Below are positions 8,459 through 51,895 of a stretch of DNA of 64,000 nt, piece after piece. The DNA lies in contig NZ_JAUSQZ010000001.1 in the NCBI RefSeq assembly GCF_030811555.1, forward strand, positions 7,871,241 through 7,935,240, written 5' to 3'. Numbering within the stretch: position 1 is the first letter of the stretch; each line of letters begins with the position of its first letter. This stretch comes from Kineosporia succinea (GTDB lineage Bacteria > Actinomycetota > Actinomycetes > Actinomycetales > Kineosporiaceae). The notes beneath the pieces are model-generated. The model saw nothing but the letters and a program-made list of their open reading frames with translations. It had not been told where the DNA came from and did not search any database. The position numbers were made by a program, and so were the translations under genes.

Positions 8459-9730
8459 ATGACCGTGACGCAGCCGACGAGCCCGGCCCGGCACCGCTGG
8501 GCCGACTGGGGCCCGGTCGCCGAGTTCACCCGCGCGCAGCGCCCGGCCGGCGCGGTCGGGGTGCCCCGCCGCTCGAACGGGTTCCGCACCACGCCGCACG
8601 AGCTGACCCTGAAAGACCGCGCGGGCGCTCACCGTTACCTGATCAGCGCGCCACACCCGACGACGACCACGGCCGCCTGGCACCTGCACCTGCTCCTCGA
8701 CCAGCAGTGGCCGGTGGCGCTGCGCGAGCGCCTCGCCCCGCTCGGTGACGTGTACGTGTTCGAGCAGCTCGGCTGGCCGTACACGAGCTCGCTGCCCGCC
8801 GTGCCGGTCGGTGAGCAGGGTCGGGCGCTGATCGCCGACCACGCCGACCTGCGCCGCTGGAACGCCGCCCGCACCGCGCTCACCGAGCTGGCCGGGGAGA
8901 TCGGCGACAGCATCCGGCACGACTGGACCGAGGCCGACGCCCTGCCCGGGCGTCTGCTGCCCTGGCGCCGCCGGGCCTGGCGCGACGCCCTGGAAGCGCA
9001 CGCCGGCCGCCTGGTCGCGGCCTACGAGGAGTACCGCCCCGTGATCCCGGAGATCGAGGCCGCCCTCGACGCCACGGCCTCGGCCCTGGCCGACGTGAAG
9101 ACCCGGCTGTCGGTCGTGCACGGGTGGTACGGGCGCACCCGCTGGCAGCTGGTCCCGGCCGGTGACGAGTCGTTCCGGCTGGTGCGCCCCGACCTGGATC
9201 CGCAGGCCCCCACCCGACGGGCCGGGCTGCTCCACGACGTCCAGCACCAGGCCCGCGACCTGCGCTTCGGCCAGCTGAAAGCGGTGCTGTGGGACGAGGC
9301 CTCGGTGCGGTTGTGCGACCGGGAACTGGCCGATGCGTCGGCCGACCTGCCGCGGCCGGTGCCGCGCCCCGGTGATTCCGCCGGGCCGGAACCCTCGTGG
9401 CGCAGCGAGCAGCTCACCTCGACCGGCGATCCCCTGGTCACGCTGGTGCCGGCCACGTTCGACGGGGTCTACCGGATGCGTCTGGGCACCCCGCCCGACG
9501 AGCTCACCGACCCGGTGAGCCTGGAGGCCGACCGGCATCGCGAACGCGAACGCCAGGAGCGCGAGAAGGAGCAGGAACGGCGCTGGCGCGAGCGGGTGAA
9601 CCGGCCCGGCGGCAGCTGGCCGACCACTCCGGGCAGCGGTGACTTCGGGGCCGGGCACGGCGGTGGTGACCACGGCGGGGGCGGGTACTCCGGCGGCGGG
9701 CACAGCGGGGGGTTCGGCGGGAGCTTCTGA
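8459..9730 (+). CDS. Hypothetical protein with coiled coil and glycine-rich tail
   Basis: A 423-aa protein starting at ATG 8459 behind GACGAGGAGG. The middle is helical (residues about 150-240). A charged helix near residues 355-380 (HRERERQEREKEQERRWRER) should form a coiled coil. The last 40 residues are Gly/His/Ser rich (GHGGGDHGGGGYSGG). There is no signal peptide or membrane helix. The gene is divergent from the 536-aa protein at 6661-8271 across a 187-bp gap. I do not recognise the family; the low-complexity tail suggests a scaffold or interaction role, which is inference only. Confidence 0.7.
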   Translation: MTVTQPTSPARHRWADWGPVAEFTRAQRPAGAVGVPRRSNGFRTTPHELTLKDRAGAHRYLISAPHPTTTTAAWHLHLLLDQQWPVALRERLAPLGDVYVFEQLGWPYTSSLPAVPVGEQGRALIADHADLRRWNAARTALTELAGEIGDSIRHDWTEADALPGRLLPWRRRAWRDALEAHAGRLVAAYEEYRPVIPEIEAALDATASALADVKTRLSVVHGWYGRTRWQLVPAGDESFRLVRPDLDPQAPTRRAGLLHDVQHQARDLRFGQLKAVLWDEASVRLCDRELADASADLPRPVPRPGDSAGPEPSWRSEQLTSTGDPLVTLVPATFDGVYRMRLGTPPDELTDPVSLEADRHRERERQEREKEQERRWRERVNRPGGSWPTTPGSGDFGAGHGGGDHGGGGYSGGGHSGGFGGSF

Positions 9731-9758
9731 CCTCAGAACACCTGAGCCGCAATCCGTT

Positions 9759-10388
9759 TCAGGTGCGACGCAGCACCGAGACCACCTTGCCCAGGATGCG
9801 CGCCCCGTCACCGTCGATGTCGGCGTAGGCCGGGTTGCGCGGCTCGAGGATCACGTGACCGTCGCGGCGGCGGAACACCTTGACCGTGGCCTCGTCGTCG
9901 ATCAGGGCCGCCACGATGTCACCGTTGTACGCCTCGGGCTGCTGCTTGACCACGACGATGTCACCGTCGCAGATCGCCGCGTCGATCATCGAGTCGCCCC
10001 GCACCCGCAGCGCGAACAGGGTGCCGCGCCCGACCAGCTCACGCGGCAGGGCGAGCACCTCGTCGAAGCTCTCCTCGGCCAGGATCGGGGCGCCGGCCGC
10101 GATGTCACCGAGCACCGGCACACCCGTCGTGACCGGCTCGCGCTTCTCCTCACCGCCCAGGAACATCCGCACGTCGACCGGCCGGGTGGCCCGGCCCCGG
10201 CGCAGAAAACCGAGCCCCTCCAGCGCTTTCAGGTGCCGGCTCACGGTCGAGGTGGACGCCAGGCCGACCGCGTCGGCGATCTCGCGGGTGCTGGGCGAGT
10301 AGCCGTTGCGCAGGGCCGACGTCCGGATGACCGCGAGGATCCGGCGCTGCCGGTCGTTCAGGACGGACGTGTCCAGGTCTTCAAGCAC
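9759..10388 (-). CDS. lexA: LexA SOS repressor
   Basis: LexA represses DNA-damage genes and cleaves itself when RecA filaments form. The start GTG 10388 gives 209 aa and is supported by a -10-like CAGAAT exactly six bases upstream (leaderless layout). A winged HTH occupies residues 10-70 ([20 protein letters not shown] is the recognition region). The cleavage site is Ala98-Gly99, with Ser133 (RGDSM) and Lys170 (ATVKVF) as the catalytic dyad. The gene is alone on its strand. I see no TCGAAC-N4-GTTCGA box in its own upstream region, which is unusual. A matching box lies at the polymerase gene at 49975. The in-frame extension up to 10538 is probably not translated. Confidence 0.95.
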
Positions 10389-10394
10389 GTCCGG

Positions 10395-10400
10395 ATTCTG
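10395..10400 (-). promoter_or_regulatory. -10 element of lexA (leaderless layout)
   Basis: CAGAAT on the minus strand ends six bases before the GTG start of lexA, so transcription would begin at or next to the start codon. No good -35 is seen. Confidence 0.4.
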
Positions 10401-10461
10401 CCAGAGGCCGGACTTGCCCCTCCGGGCGGACCGGCTGCCCGCGAGGACACCCGTGGCGCAG

Positions 10462-10474
10462 GTCACATCGTGAC
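10462..10474. repeat. Palindrome upstream of lexA
   Basis: GTCAC-ATC-GTGAC is a perfect 5-bp inverted repeat 74 bp upstream of the lexA start. It does not match the SOS box. It may bind another regulator or be chance. Confidence 0.25.
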
Positions 10475-10610
10475 GCTGGGTCGCAGGTCGGACACGCTCA
10501 CCGACCGCTCGCCGAAGAATCCCGCCCCGGGCGGGCATTGACGCGCGAGCCGCCGCGTCCGTTCCTGGTGCCCGAGGTCCGTCCCGTCACCGCAGGCCCG
10601 TTCGCCCGTT

Positions 10611-10640
10611 CGCAGGCACTCGCAGGCACTCGCAGGCAGG
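10611..10640 (+). repeat. Three 10-bp direct repeats before the phospholipase gene
   Basis: CGCAGGCACT occurs twice back to back, then CGCAGGCAGG. The last copy runs into the AGGAGAG ribosome-binding site of the phospholipase gene. Copy-number slippage would alter the 5' leader, not the protein. Confidence 0.6.
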
Positions 10641-10653
10641 AGAGCACCACGCC

Positions 10654-11442
10654 ATGAAGGCAATCCGCACCGCCGGTCTCGCCGGTTCCCTGATCGTCGT
10701 CGTTCTCGCCCTGGTCGCCCCCACCCCGGCACACGCGTCCATGGTGGACGCCGCGGTCACCTCGGTCTCCGAGGTGCCGGGCGCGAGCGTCCCCCCGGTG
10801 AGGATCACCGAACCCGGCACCTACTCCTACGAGTTCGCGGCGCGGGTACCGGCCGGCGGCCGCCTGCAACCGGTCGACGCCGACACCGGGTCCCGTTTCT
10901 CCAGCGAGGTTCTCGTCGAGAACGCGGCCGGTGACGTGGTCGGCGCCTACGACGCGCCCTACACCGTGACCGAGGACGGCGCGTTCCTGCCGACCACCTA
11001 CCGCATCGAGGGCACCTCCCTGATCCAGACGGTGACGGTGGACGCGTCGGTGAAGCTTCCCGCCTACGTGCTGTTCTCGGACTACACACCGACAGGGACC
11101 ACCCCGGCCGCCACCTCCAGGGGCGTCACGCCCCTGGCCGCCACGTTCGTGAGCGTGCCGTCGGACTACGTGTACAACCCCGACCTGGGCAGCCTGCACG
11201 ACTACTGCACGAGCTCCCCGGACTCGTTCGGCAGCGCCGACTTCCGAGGCCCGTGCGCCCGGCACGACCTGTGCTACGAGGCGCCGGGCGACCACAAGGC
11301 CGCCTGCGACTCGGCCCTCAAGAGCGACCTCGTCACGAACTGCAACTACGCCTACGGCTCGCTCAACCCGCTGCGGGGCACCTGCCAGGGCGTGGCCAAC
11401 GTGTACTACGCGGCGGTGACGGCCTTCGGCGACGACGACTGA
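10654..11442 (+). CDS. Secreted prokaryotic phospholipase A2
   Basis: A 262-aa exported enzyme of the bacterial phospholipase A2 family, which releases the sn-2 fatty acid from glycerophospholipids. A Sec signal peptide covers residues 1-28 (KAIR, a long hydrophobic stretch, then AHA). The catalytic segment is CARHDLCYE, with His204 and Asp205 and paired cysteines. Further Cys residues (189, 218, 230, 244) fit the disulfide pattern of this family. The N-terminal 150 residues form an additional beta-rich domain not present in the minimal streptomycete enzyme (about 120 aa). The ribosome-binding site AGGAGAG sits in a 10-bp repeat array. It is monocistronic and convergent with iolD. Confidence 0.85.
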   Translation: MKAIRTAGLAGSLIVVVLALVAPTPAHASMVDAAVTSVSEVPGASVPPVRITEPGTYSYEFAARVPAGGRLQPVDADTGSRFSSEVLVENAAGDVVGAYDAPYTVTEDGAFLPTTYRIEGTSLIQTVTVDASVKLPAYVLFSDYTPTGTTPAATSRGVTPLAATFVSVPSDYVYNPDLGSLHDYCTSSPDSFGSADFRGPCARHDLCYEAPGDHKAACDSALKSDLVTNCNYAYGSLNPLRGTCQGVANVYYAAVTAFGDDD

Positions 11443-47793: not shown

Positions 47794-48486
47794 TCACCCG
47801 GCCGCGTAGAAGCGGTAGGCGGCCGTGTACGCGACGCCCTGCGTGGCGCCGTCGGCACAGGCCCCGACCGGCGCCACGCCGCCCGTGGTGTCGAGCCGCT
47901 GCACGTAGGTCACCGAACCGAACAGCCCGTCGCCGCGCGTGGTCGTGGCCCGCAGCAGCAGCTGCGGGATCGAGCCCTCCACCGGCGACGAGGCGATCGA
48001 CGCGGCCTCCACCAGCGAGCCGTCGTCCAGGGACTCCCAGCTCGGGCCCCGGAAGTGCACAGCCTGGACCGGGCGGTGCGTCGCGGTCGCGAAACCGGCC
48101 AGCCGCGCGGCCGGTTCGAGGAAGACCCAGGCGCCCCCGGTGCAGCGGTAGACCTGGACGCCGGTGGCCCGGAACCGGGCCACCTCGCGGTTGCCGGCCG
48201 GCGGGACGAGATTCGCGGGAACGGACGAGGGGCGCGCCGAGGACTGCGCGGCGGCCGGCAACGGCGACCGCGCGGACCACGGGGCGGACGGCTCGGCCGA
48301 CGACTGGGCGGACGACTGGGCGGACGACTGCGCGGACGACTGCGCGGACGACTGCGCGGACGACTGCGCGGACGACTGCGCGGACGACTGCGCGGACGAC
48401 TGGGCCGCCCCGGCCGTCGCCAGCCCCGCCGTCATCGTCAGGCCGAGGGCCACCACCACTCGGAGGGTCCGGGTGCTGATCTTCAT
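47794..48486 (-). CDS. Secreted DUF3455-type protein with AQSS repeat
   Basis: A 230-aa exported protein. Signal peptide residues 1-28 (KISTRTLRVV, hydrophobic, AGAA). A low-complexity stretch of nine AQSS-like repeats follows (about residues 28-63), coded by a 12-bp DNA array. The conserved domain then begins at VPANLVPPAGNREVARFRAT and runs to the end (RATTTRGDGLFGSVTYVQRL, CADGATQGVAYTAAYRFY). Fungal and bacterial relatives are extracellular proteins of unknown function (DUF3455). GGTGGAG precedes ATG 48486. The repeat number could vary between strains. Confidence 0.82.
   Translation of the reverse strand: MKISTRTLRVVVALGLTMTAGLATAGAAQSSAQSSAQSSAQSSAQSSAQSSAQSSAQSSAQSSAEPSAPWSARSPLPAAAQSSARPSSVPANLVPPAGNREVARFRATGVQVYRCTGGAWVFLEPAARLAGFATATHRPVQAVHFRGPSWESLDDGSLVEAASIASSPVEGSIPQLLLRATTTRGDGLFGSVTYVQRLDTTGGVAPVGACADGATQGVAYTAAYRFYAAG
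48299..48406. repeat. 12-bp tandem repeat array, nine copies
   Basis: GACGACTGSGCG (S is C or G) is repeated nine times without a gap. On the minus strand it encodes the AQSS repeats of the secreted protein. Since 12 is a multiple of three, copy-number changes keep the reading frame. Confidence 0.9.
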
Positions 48487-48702
48487 CGATGCTCCACCTC
48501 TCGCTCCGGAAACGGGACACCGGACATACGACGGGTGCCCGGCCGATGGTTCACCCCCTGCCCCAACCCTCACCTCGGGGGATGGTTCTCCAGCCGTCAC
48601 CGGCTCCTTCTGAGCATAACCACAGCTCAATCGCCTCTCAGCAAACTCTCCCCCAACGTGAGATTGGGTGAGGAGGTGTCTGCCGGACGAGAACGAGGCT
48701 CC

Positions 48703-49833
48703 GTGAGCATCCATACCGGGCGCCGCGTGGCCCGGCGCTACGCCACCCCACCCCTCGCCCGCCACGCCGTCCACCCACCGACCCTCGCCACCGCGTTCGA
48801 CCCCCGCGACAACGCGCTCAACGTGATGCGGCTCGCCCTGGCCGTTCTCGTCGCCGTCGTGCACGCGTCCTTCCTCGGCTACGGGTGGCAGCCCCACATC
48901 GGGCACACCGAGGTCGGCGCCCTCGCGGTCGACGCGTTCTTCGTGCTCAGCGGGTTCCTGGTGGTCCGCAGCTACCTTCGGCTGAAATCGCTGCCCCGCT
49001 ACGTCTGGCACCGCGCGCTGCGGATCCTGCCCGGGTTCTACGCCTGCCTGACCGTCACCGCCCTGTTCATCGCGCCCCTGCTCGCGGTGGTCGTGGGGCG
49101 CCCGGCCACCTCGGTGCTCAGCGGCGAGGACTCGTCCGTCGGGTATCTCACCGCCAACGCGGGCCTGCTCATGCGCCAGTTCGGCATCGCCGGCCTGCCC
49201 GGCACCGGCGGCAACCCGGACGTGGTCAACGGTTCGCTGTGGACGCTGTTCTACGAGGCCTTCTGCTACGGACTGGCCGCCGGGCTGGGCCTTCTCGGCA
49301 TCCTGACCCGCCGGCTGTGGGTGCTGCCGATGCTGATCGCGGGCCTGTGGGTGGCCACGCTCGCGAGTGCCGTCGGCGTGAACCCGCTGGGCTCGGAGTA
49401 CCTGCTGCGCTTCGCGCTGGTGTTCCTGCTCGGCACCGCCGGGCTGCTGTTCGCCGACCTGATCCCGATCCACGCCGGGCTCGCGCTGGGCGCTTTCGCG
49501 GTGCTGATGCTGAGTCTGCTGCACTTCGAGAACTACCGGGTGCTGGGTGCTCCGGCGTTCGCGTACCTGTGCCTGTACGCGATGGTGCGCCTTCCGGTGC
49601 CGTGGGAGCCGCGCTGGGACGTCTCGTACGGCATGTACGTCTGGCACTGGCCGGTGGCCCAGCTGCTGGTGGCCCTGCGGATCACCGAGTTCCCCGGCGT
49701 CGTCTTCGTTCTCGCGGTCGTCGCGGTGGCGGGGGCGGTGTCGGCGCTGTCGTGGAACCTGGTGGAGAAACCGGCGATGGGCCTCAAACACGCGGCGTGG
49801 GTGAGCCGGCTGGAACGAGCGCGGCCGGCGTGA
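48703..49833 (+). CDS. Acyltransferase family 3 membrane protein
   Basis: A 376-aa integral membrane acyltransferase of the OafA/YrhL group with about ten helices. The catalytic His is in VVHASFLGYG (helix 1-2), then DAFFVLSGFLVVRSYL and LRILPGFYACL are present. Such enzymes acetylate or succinylate exported glycans, lipids or antibiotics. Start GTG 48703 with GAGG upstream is preferred; GTG 48676 lacks spacing. There is no extra SGNH domain. Substrate unknown. Confidence 0.88.
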   Translation: MSIHTGRRVARRYATPPLARHAVHPPTLATAFDPRDNALNVMRLALAVLVAVVHASFLGYGWQPHIGHTEVGALAVDAFFVLSGFLVVRSYLRLKSLPRYVWHRALRILPGFYACLTVTALFIAPLLAVVVGRPATSVLSGEDSSVGYLTANAGLLMRQFGIAGLPGTGGNPDVVNGSLWTLFYEAFCYGLAAGLGLLGILTRRLWVLPMLIAGLWVATLASAVGVNPLGSEYLLRFALVFLLGTAGLLFADLIPIHAGLALGAFAVLMLSLLHFENYRVLGAPAFAYLCLYAMVRLPVPWEPRWDVSYGMYVWHWPVAQLLVALRITEFPGVVFVLAVVAVAGAVSALSWNLVEKPAMGLKHAAWVSRLERARPA

Positions 49834-49969
49834 CGTGGCCCGCACGGCCGTGGCTGCGGTGGGGTGCTCGCGGCGGCCAGGGACCTGGGCGTGTCCGGCG
49901 CGGACACGGGCACGGTCGTCGTCGCGGGTGCGGCGAGCACCATGTTCGTCACAGATGCTCGTCAGGGCT

Positions 49970-49975
49970 TATCAT
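49970..49975 (+). promoter_or_regulatory. -10 element of the Y-family polymerase gene (leaderless layout)
   Basis: TATCAT ends seven bases before ATG 49983, and its last base is the first base of the SOS box. No ribosome-binding site is present. Confidence 0.6.
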
Positions 49976-49990
49976 CGAACGTATGTTCGA
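49975..49990. promoter_or_regulatory. SOS box (LexA operator) covering the polymerase start codon
   Basis: TCGAACGTATGTTCGA is a perfect palindrome and an exact match to the actinobacterial/Bacillus-type LexA site TCGAAC-N4-GTTCGA. Its central bases include the ATG start codon (49983-49985). LexA bound here would sit on the -10, the probable transcription start and the first codons. Confidence 0.88.
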
Positions 49991-51044
49991 GTCGCGGGCG
50001 GGAGAGACAGGGCCTTCAGGGCGGCCTCTCCTGCACGTCGACGCCGACTGCTTCTTCGCCGCGGTTGCACTGCGGGGCCGTCCCGACCTGGCGCGGCGCC
50101 CGGTGGCGGTCGTGAACCACATGTTCGTGGCCAGCGCGAACTACCCGGCCCGCCGGCGGGGAGTGCGCGGTGGCACGACGGTCGCGGAGGCCGTGCACGC
50201 GTGCCCGGGGCTGGTGCTGCTCGACGTGCCGCACGCGGAGGTCGAAGAGGTCTCCGACGCGTTGTTCGGCGTCTTCCACCGCTTCGCCGCCGCGGTCGAG
50301 CCGGGCTCGGTCGAGGAGGCGTTCCTCGACGTGCGGGCGGGTGACTGGGGCGAGGCCGCGCGCACCGCCCAGACCCTGCGCGCCCAGGTGCTTCTCGAGC
50401 TCGGCGTCACGGTCAGCGTCGGGGTGGGGCGCACCAAGCTGATGGCGAAACTGGCCTCCCGGGCGGCCAAGCCCGACGGCCTGCACCTGATCGAGCCGCA
50501 CCACGAGGCCGAACTGCGCGCTGGGCTGCCGATCTCGCGGGTCTGGGGCATCGGCCCGAAGACCCTCACCCGCCTGGCGAACCTCGACGTGCACCGCCTC
50601 GCCGACCTCGACCGGGTTCCCCGCGAGGCGGTCCAGCGCCTGTGCGGCACCACGATGGCCCGGCGCCTCACCCAGATCCGCAACGGCACCGACGACGCGG
50701 TGGTGCGCCCGGTGCAGCACCGCGAGAGTCTCAGCGCCGAGGTCTCCACCGAGGGCTACGCGCGGCCCGACCACACGCCGGCGGCGATGGCCCGGCTGTG
50801 CACCGAGCGGGTACTGCGGCGGGCCGAGAAGGCCGGGCTGAGCGGCACCGGCATCCTGCTCACCCTGCAGCCGCGCGACGGCGGGCGGCCCGAGCGGCGC
50901 CGCCAGAGCGGCACTCCGGGCGACGGCTGGGTGCACACGGCCTCAGCCCTGCTCGAGCGGGAACCGGTGCCGCCGCTCGCCGGGCTGCGGGTGACGCTGA
51001 CCGGCCTGGCCCCGGCCGGGCAGGAGCCCGAAACCCTTTTCTGA
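49983..51044 (+). CDS. dinB: DNA polymerase IV-like translesion polymerase (DinB)
   Basis: A 353-aa Y-family polymerase that bypasses damaged template bases. Catalytic motif I is HVDADCFFAAVA (Asp20). Motif III reads GSVEEAFLDV, where the usual SxDE is SVEE: Asp is replaced by Glu111, followed by Glu112. The helix-hairpin-helix GIGPKTLTRLANLDV and the little-finger domain follow, and the extreme C-terminus PETLF resembles a beta-clamp-binding peptide. It starts inside a perfect SOS box and should be strongly induced by DNA damage. Convergent with LysR (5 bp). Confidence 0.92.
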   Translation: MFESRAGETGPSGRPLLHVDADCFFAAVALRGRPDLARRPVAVVNHMFVASANYPARRRGVRGGTTVAEAVHACPGLVLLDVPHAEVEEVSDALFGVFHRFAAAVEPGSVEEAFLDVRAGDWGEAARTAQTLRAQVLLELGVTVSVGVGRTKLMAKLASRAAKPDGLHLIEPHHEAELRAGLPISRVWGIGPKTLTRLANLDVHRLADLDRVPREAVQRLCGTTMARRLTQIRNGTDDAVVRPVQHRESLSAEVSTEGYARPDHTPAAMARLCTERVLRRAEKAGLSGTGILLTLQPRDGGRPERRRQSGTPGDGWVHTASALLEREPVPPLAGLRVTLTGLAPAGQEPETLF

Positions 51045-51049
51045 CGCGG

Positions 51050-51895
51050 TTATCGGCTCGCGACGTCCTGGGCGGTACGCACGAACGCGGCGACGGCCGG
51101 GGAGCGTGACCCGACGGCCCAGACCACCGCCAACGTCGAGGGCTCCAGGTCTTCGACGGCGCGGTAGACCAGGTTCGGGCGGGGGAAGCGCTCGGCCAGC
51201 CACTGCGGCAGGAACCAGACCAGGTTGCCGGTCTCGACCAGGCTGAAGATCTGCGAGAGGTCACGCCGCACGCGCTGTCCCGTGGGCGCGGTGACGTCAC
51301 CGAGCTCGGCGGCGGTGCCGTTGGGCAGCATCCGCCCGGCCAGGTCGCTCAGCCGCAGCGGGCCCGGGTGGGTGACCAGGGGGTCGGAGGCCGCGAGCGC
51401 CACCACGCGCGGCGCGGTCACGAGCGGCTCGGACTCCAGGCCCTGCGGGTCGTAAGGCGTTGGCACGAGAGCCACGTCGGCCCGCCCGTCGCGCACGGCC
51501 CGCACCTGGTCGCCGGGACCGCCCAGCAGCAGCTGGACGGGCAGCTCGCGGTACTCCTCGACGATGCGGGGCAGCAGCCCGGCGTCGAAGTCGGCCTTCA
51601 GCGCCACCGTCAGTGCGGGGGCCGGCCGGCCGGAGCGGTGGGCGCGGCGGCCCGCGGCCTGCACCGCCTCGAGCGCACGGCGGGCGTCGTCGAGCAGGGT
51701 CTCCCCCACCGGGGTGAGCGCGACCTGTCGGGTGGTGCGCACCAGCAGCTGCACGCCGAGCTGCCGTTCCATCTCCCGGATCGCCCGCGACAACGGCGGC
51801 TGGGCCATCCCGAGCCGCTGCGCCGCGCGTCCGAAATGCTGTTCCTCGGCCACGGCGACGAAGTACCGCAGCTGTCGCGTCTCGAGGTCATTCAT
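51050..51895 (-). CDS. LysR-family transcriptional regulator
   Basis: A 281-aa regulator with the N-terminal LysR HTH (FGRAAQRLGMAQPPLSRAIREME, residues about 20-42) and a C-terminal periplasmic-binding-like effector domain. It is divergent from the NmrA-like gene with 97 bp between starts; that gap holds an inverted-repeat-like ATCAATCGAGAGCGAA. It most likely activates the NmrA gene in response to an aromatic or oxidised small molecule. Effector unknown. Confidence 0.92.
   Translation of the reverse strand: MNDLETRQLRYFVAVAEEQHFGRAAQRLGMAQPPLSRAIREMERQLGVQLLVRTTRQVALTPVGETLLDDARRALEAVQAAGRRAHRSGRPAPALTVALKADFDAGLLPRIVEEYRELPVQLLLGGPGDQVRAVRDGRADVALVPTPYDPQGLESEPLVTAPRVVALAASDPLVTHPGPLRLSDLAGRMLPNGTAAELGDVTAPTGQRVRRDLSQIFSLVETGNLVWFLPQWLAERFPRPNLVYRAVEDLEPSTLAVVWAVGSRSPAVAAFVRTAQDVASR

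Follow-up and report, generated by a model that had tools for sequence, protein, structure and literature searches.

Genes repressed by LexA are released when LexA is cleaved after RecA activation, and an overlap between operator and promoter elements is commonplace for a repressor of this kind. Leaderless mRNAs under operator control are known as well, the textbook case being lambda cI transcribed from PRM, although this is a phage repressor gene whose operator and geometry differ from those of the polymerase gene described below. RecA-driven LexA cleavage is also found in the parts of PMC5656591 and PMC8151990 covered here. In S. venezuelae, the LexA/SOS regulon includes the translesion polymerases DinP and DnaE2 (PMC9380542, sections covered), and for the selected targets in Table 1 of that paper the first base of the box is placed, relative to the predicted start codon, at -14 to -199 or at +91. 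In the -14 case, an operon on a plasmid that includes a polymerase IV gene, the box just reaches the start codon. Leaderless genes of Actinobacteria are marked by a TANNNT core that precedes the start codon by about 12 bp, and have no Shine-Dalgarno (SD) sequence (PMC3160421, in part). The M. tuberculosis lexA gene, which is LexA-regulated and has its start codon at the transcription start, provides the precedent of a leaderless LexA target; the section of PMC2897130 covered here does not mention an SOS box that overlaps the start codon.

The gene considered here lies in a 64-kb window (the whole stretch of DNA analysed, G000:C1:7871241-7935240) of an 8.07-Mb single-contig Kineosporia genome. 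The 21 bp at 49970-49990, read on the + strand as TATCATCGAACGTATGTTCGA, hold a promoter -10 element, an operator and an ATG, an arrangement that we call the composite. The -10 element, TATCAT (49970-49975, of the form TANNNT), is identified by its letters, by a promoter scan and by the register common to both Kineosporia orthologues, and its final T is base 1 of the predicted LexA operator (49975-49990, TCGAACGTATGTTCGA), an SOS box with two perfect arms that is kept in both congeneric orthologues. The ATG of a Y-family polymerase gene (49983-49985) comes seven bases after the end of the -10, and the operator covers the predicted transcription start and runs through codons 1 and 2 into codon 3, of which it includes two bases. 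This composite is confirmed: the original prediction had described a perfect 16-bp SOS box including the ATG and a TATCAT ending seven bases earlier, and its letters, coordinates and distances are all correct. Compared with the S. venezuelae targets, the operator is of the same TCGAAC-N4-GTTC type, but it begins at -8 and spans the start codon (PMC9380542, in part). The gene resembles the TANNNT-led leaderless genes of PMC3160421, as far as that paper was covered, with the difference that discriminator and first codons would double as a repressor operator. A literature search on LexA, SOS and leaderless starts found no statement of the arrangement in the passages covered, the main studies of the LexA regulon in M. 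tuberculosis and C. glutamicum lying outside its scope.

The polymerase gene (49983-51044, + strand) encodes a DinB-like protein of 353 aa that begins M-F-E, and it is identified by its translation, a Pfam match and the frame plot. The IMS catalytic domain (PF00817) scores 122.7 bits against a cut-off of 23.2 (E=1.5e-35). Against the NCBIfam equivalog models for DNA polymerase IV, the scores stay under the curated thresholds (best 199.4 bits versus 256), and the protein is filed as a Y-family relative rather than as DNA polymerase IV. A coding G+C pattern appears in the ATG frame from about 49983, and the first in-frame ATG, GTG or TTG on going upstream is a GTG at a distance of 153 bases, within the preceding ORF (48055-49833).

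We consider it likely that this is a LexA-repressed, leaderless SOS gene whose operator shares bases with its start codon. RNA polymerase would recognise TATCAT and begin the transcript with the A of the start codon (49983), so that translation would begin at the very 5' end of the mRNA. In an undamaged cell, a LexA dimer on 49975-49990 would cover the start site and first codons as well as the final base of the -10, and its occupancy of these bases would exclude RNA polymerase; upon DNA damage, RecA would trigger LexA self-cleavage and the polymerase would be made. With bases common to operator and coding sequence, M-F-E would also be fixed by the operator. We infer LexA binding, the start site, leaderless translation and SOS induction at this gene from what the sequence itself shows: the letters, a register that is conserved, an M-F-E that does not vary, a -10 enriched at one offset from SOS boxes, and coding frames that open at RTG codons inside them.

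A Y-family match of some kind is present in 13/13 genomes of the family, while close orthologues (70-71% identity) were found in only two of the five Kineosporia congeners, K. babensis and K. rhizophila (G005 and G008), and none in the other three. They read TATGATCGAACACATGTTCGA and TACACTCGAACACATGTTCGA, and keep the exact register TANNNT-CGAAC-NN-ATG-TTCGA: the -10 letters vary (TATGAT, TACACT), as does the box centre, yet the register is identical. By eye, the DNA further upstream differs among the three orthologues, whereas the distance of TANNNT is the same in all. This exact register, together with the first T of TATCAT lying 13 bp ahead of the ATG at 49983 and the absence of an SD-like sequence directly upstream of that ATG (letters read), supports the leaderless start that had been proposed. 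M1-F2-E3 is invariant in the three proteins while residues 4-13 show indels, with 10, 0 and 2 residues between M-F-E and R-P-L-L-H; an invariant M-F-E amid a variable N-terminus is expected if the operator constrains the first codons, and this part of the original prediction is thus supported as well. K. babensis has an additional in-frame ATG 12 nt upstream, within its -10.

Comparison of the same region in more distant relatives gave a different picture. In the tree (37 rows from 41 loci, L034, L035, L036 and L040 giving none), one group with support of 100/100 unites the window protein, its two orthologues, a Microbacteriaceae protein (52% identity) and ten proteins of genus g60 (L227-L236), the latter being, apart from the gene itself, all that a search of 394 genomes of the class gave at E<=1e-60. 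The Microbacteriaceae gene has no box near its start, and a scan of the 100 nt ahead of the first motif showed none in the g60 genes (10/10). The box is therefore near the start in only 3 of the 14 clade members read, and its conservation across the whole polymerase clade is rejected: it is kept in 2/2 congeneric orthologues, and none was seen near the start in 11/11 more distant relatives.

Two further observations concern this clade. Y-family polymerases have an acidic pair of the form S-x-D-E; the window protein has S-V-E-E in its place, a departure that, E for D being a conservative change, we do not take as excluding it. S-x-E-E is found in 14/14 members of the clade, and S-x-D-E in the 23/23 other tree rows. 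The ten g60 genes have no conserved standard start codon: ATC (9/10) or ATA (1/10) opens their conserved I-D-x-x-P N-terminus, a TTG occurs within 23 codons of it in just 3/10 (codon 11), and in 6/10 an in-frame stop stands just before the third codon upstream of ATC. Six to seven nt separate ATC/ATA from a TAGGCT, TAGTCT or TAAGCT, and an element resembling that of PafBC (5 to 8 of 9 matches) lies exactly 8 nt before that hexamer. These genes are candidates for a leaderless AUC/AUA start.

How widespread is the arrangement? Perfect TCGAACNNNNGTTCGA sites number 12 in the Kineosporia genome, against 0 for the pattern read backwards, and the composite TANNNTCGAACNNRTGTTYGA occurs once, at the polymerase gene (backwards control, 0). 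Across the actinomycete class, composites were found in 104/394 genomes and 55/138 genera, the reversed pattern giving 0 among the matches listed for the 394 genomes. The arrangement is thus not rare, contrary to the suggestion that it is unusual; it is the leaderless start that is the unusual part.

The question arises as to whether the overlap of operator and start codon is itself selected. The operator may be real and the gene leaderless, and the overlap still incidental; we hold this to be a serious possibility, if somewhat short of even. It is compatible with the mechanism preferred above and competes only with the claim of a selected fusion. We collected 89 distinct perfect boxes (178 orientations) that were not chosen for a -10: 12 from the Kineosporia genome, 29 loci given by a search for boxes, and 48 further sites from the list of that search. 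TANNNT starts at offset -5 in 24/178 orientations; elsewhere it reaches at most 9 (9 at -14, 8 at +17), except at +7, inside the box, where 38/178 are supplied by the box itself. An RTG at +8 is present in 96/178 orientations regardless of a -10, so that its presence alone says little and part of the overlap comes free; the operator would supply a start codon cheaply. An excess of co-occurrence of -10 and RTG is unsupported, as 11/24 orientations with TANNNT at -5 have the RTG, where the two frequencies predict about 13. The -10 does go with coding: an ORF that reaches 100 aa or more and lies in the best G+C frame begins at the +8 RTG in 9/11 orientations with a -10 versus 16/85 without (Fisher p=6e-5, the boxes from related genomes being not fully independent), and among all RTG from -2 to +44, 21/35 with TANNNT 5-8 nt upstream are coding by the same test versus 78/306 without (p=6e-5).

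The existence of other layouts also favours an incidental overlap. A box of at most 2 mismatches was sought within 220 nt before the first motif at 30 Y-family loci of the family; 12 have one, 14 have none and 4 gave no motif. Three of the 12 are composites, and the other nine, DinB paralogues (L017, L022, L029, L030, L032, L033, L037, L038 and L039), have the box directly upstream of a TANNNT at +17, with ATG or GTG 6-7 nt after it in the printed letters. We predict this to be a second leaderless LexA layout, in which case leaderless SOS polymerases would be common in the family; the Kineosporia genome contains both, the window gene as a composite and L038 with the box before the -10. In addition, a start inside the box at offset 6 occurs in 4/178 orientations. 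Against an incidental overlap stands the register that is static in three orthologues despite a drifting N-terminus, but the need for an operator plus a start codon would also account for this.

To describe the composites themselves, we assembled 107 distinct sites from the loci returned by searches, sites already in hand and a hand-picked part of the class listing; one duplicate was dropped, the L157 box is counted on both strands, and the three Kineosporia sites are included. The frame of the RTG is the best frame in 92/107, and also at least 100 aa long in 82/107. The 82 proteins include, by Pfam, 61 DUF222, 3 UvrD helicases, 3 IMS, which we take to be the Kineosporia genes, and 1 LexA. An SD-like 4-5-mer lies within 20 nt upstream in 4 of the 82 genes. 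The one protein that matches LexA_DNA_bind also matches S24, and L225 is, by its letters, a lexA gene with its own start codon in a composite (M-F-E-F).

When DUF222 genes were sampled by protein instead (30 loci, one per genome, from 30 genomes), 12 had, close to the start of the ORF, a box with no more than 2 mismatches and none was a strict composite (0/30), so that the composite as a rule for DUF222 genes is rejected. Five putative HNH endonucleases of M. tuberculosis show RecA-dependent induction (PMC8151990, in part), which fits SOS control of HNH proteins. A literature search joining DUF222, SOS and LexA found nothing.

A second damage signal may act at some of these sites. The promoter of the RecA-independent regulator PafBC is described as tTGTCRgtg-8 nt-TAnnnT (PMC5656591, in part), and the same element (TTGTCRGTG, at least 7 of 9) stands at the same spacing, offset -22 and exactly 8 nt before the -10, in 24/107 composites (for example L184, L186 and L193), compared with 0-6 of 107 at each of 32 other offsets. 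We predict that such composites respond to PafBC as well as to LexA. The window gene differs from them, with 2 of 9 matches counted by hand, and is outside the 24 sites; PafBC control of it is rejected, the motif being absent at the right spacing, though TCGTCAGGG lies 2 nt before the -10.

As to which LexA would bind the polymerase operator, the genome has two LexA_DNA_bind matches, one of 98.6 bits at 393 kb of the contig and one of 63.8 bits in the window. The original prediction had pointed out a lexA in the same window; LexA_DNA_bind and Peptidase_S24 domains are indeed matched at 9759-10538 (- strand), but this is a second paralogue, and the stronger match, with boxes of its own, is the one at 393 kb, which sits behind a perfect SOS box and, by eye, two near-perfect ones. 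It is unlikely that the window paralogue, and not the autoregulated LexA, controls the polymerase operator. It has the full LexA domain order and shares the 64-kb window with the operator; however, its recognition-helix region differs by eye from that of the 393-kb LexA, no perfect SOS box lies beside it (no GAAC-N4-GTTC in 9601-11000), and the polymerase box is of the same type as the box at the other lexA. We infer that the autoregulated LexA is the likelier binder.

Transcription might also start further upstream and give a normal leader, LexA at 49975-49990 then acting as a roadblock inside the transcript. The preceding ORF (48055-49833), which has an acyltransferase domain, is on the same strand and ends 149 bp before the polymerase gene, with no terminator-like site found in 49600-51200. 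Nevertheless, in a consensus scan of the same interval the promoter-like sites are solely two versions ending in TATCAT (2 versus a shuffle mean of 0.0), one with a weak candidate -35, TCGTCA (49946-49951, 18-nt spacer), and the other with GTCACA (49948-49953, 16-nt spacer); by eye, no conservation of the candidate -35 was seen in the two Kineosporia orthologues. The lack of an SD near the ATG, and TANNNT at equal distance in three orthologues whose upstream DNA differs by eye, also speak against a leader, and we judge the roadblock to be quite improbable.

It is very improbable that the -10 is instead the TATGTT within the box (49982-49987), with transcription starting downstream of the ATG. 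This hexamer does fit TANNNT, as do the +7 matches in 38/178 orientations, but the latter arise whenever the box centre gives TA before the fixed GTT. Moreover, after the ATG at 49983 no further in-frame ATG, GTG or TTG occurs before the conserved LLHVDAD block, which in K. babensis is preceded by MFERP alone.

Finally, no second match to TCGAACGTATGTTCGA at up to 3 mismatches exists in the 64-kb window, its own reverse strand aside, and shuffled sequence gives 0.20 on average. The shorter core CGAAC-N4-GTTCG is exact at two more places (35277 and 59385), and its 6 matches at up to 1 mismatch are unremarkable against 3.05 expected, so that the core is weak evidence by itself. That the box is a chance palindrome is barely credible: chance does produce such shorter cores in the window, but the 16-mer is unique there, the perfect boxes and the single composite of the genome stand against backwards controls of zero, as do the composites of the class among the matches listed, and the register is kept in the orthologues.

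The preferred reading is a leaderless polymerase gene under LexA. Since the composite recurs before other genes in many related bacteria, it appears to be real, though a compact variant of known SOS control. We see about even chances for a broader reading, in which Actinomycetes would repeatedly have made the LexA operator into a module that carries the start codon of leaderless genes for the damage response (DUF222/HNH proteins, UvrD-like helicases, Y-family polymerases and even a lexA). The 21-bp TANNNTCGAACNNRTGTTYGA would then be -10, operator and start in one, stamping (M/V)-F-(E/D) on the proteins, and the subset with a PafBC element 8 nt before the -10 would form a 38-bp unit that reads both damage signals. 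If this is true, regulatory and coding DNA are the same bases, and the operator dictates the first residues and places the start codon. The 21-bp signature could then be used in actinomycetes to locate SOS genes and to put right the annotation of start codons, and combined control by LexA and PafBC would be directly testable.
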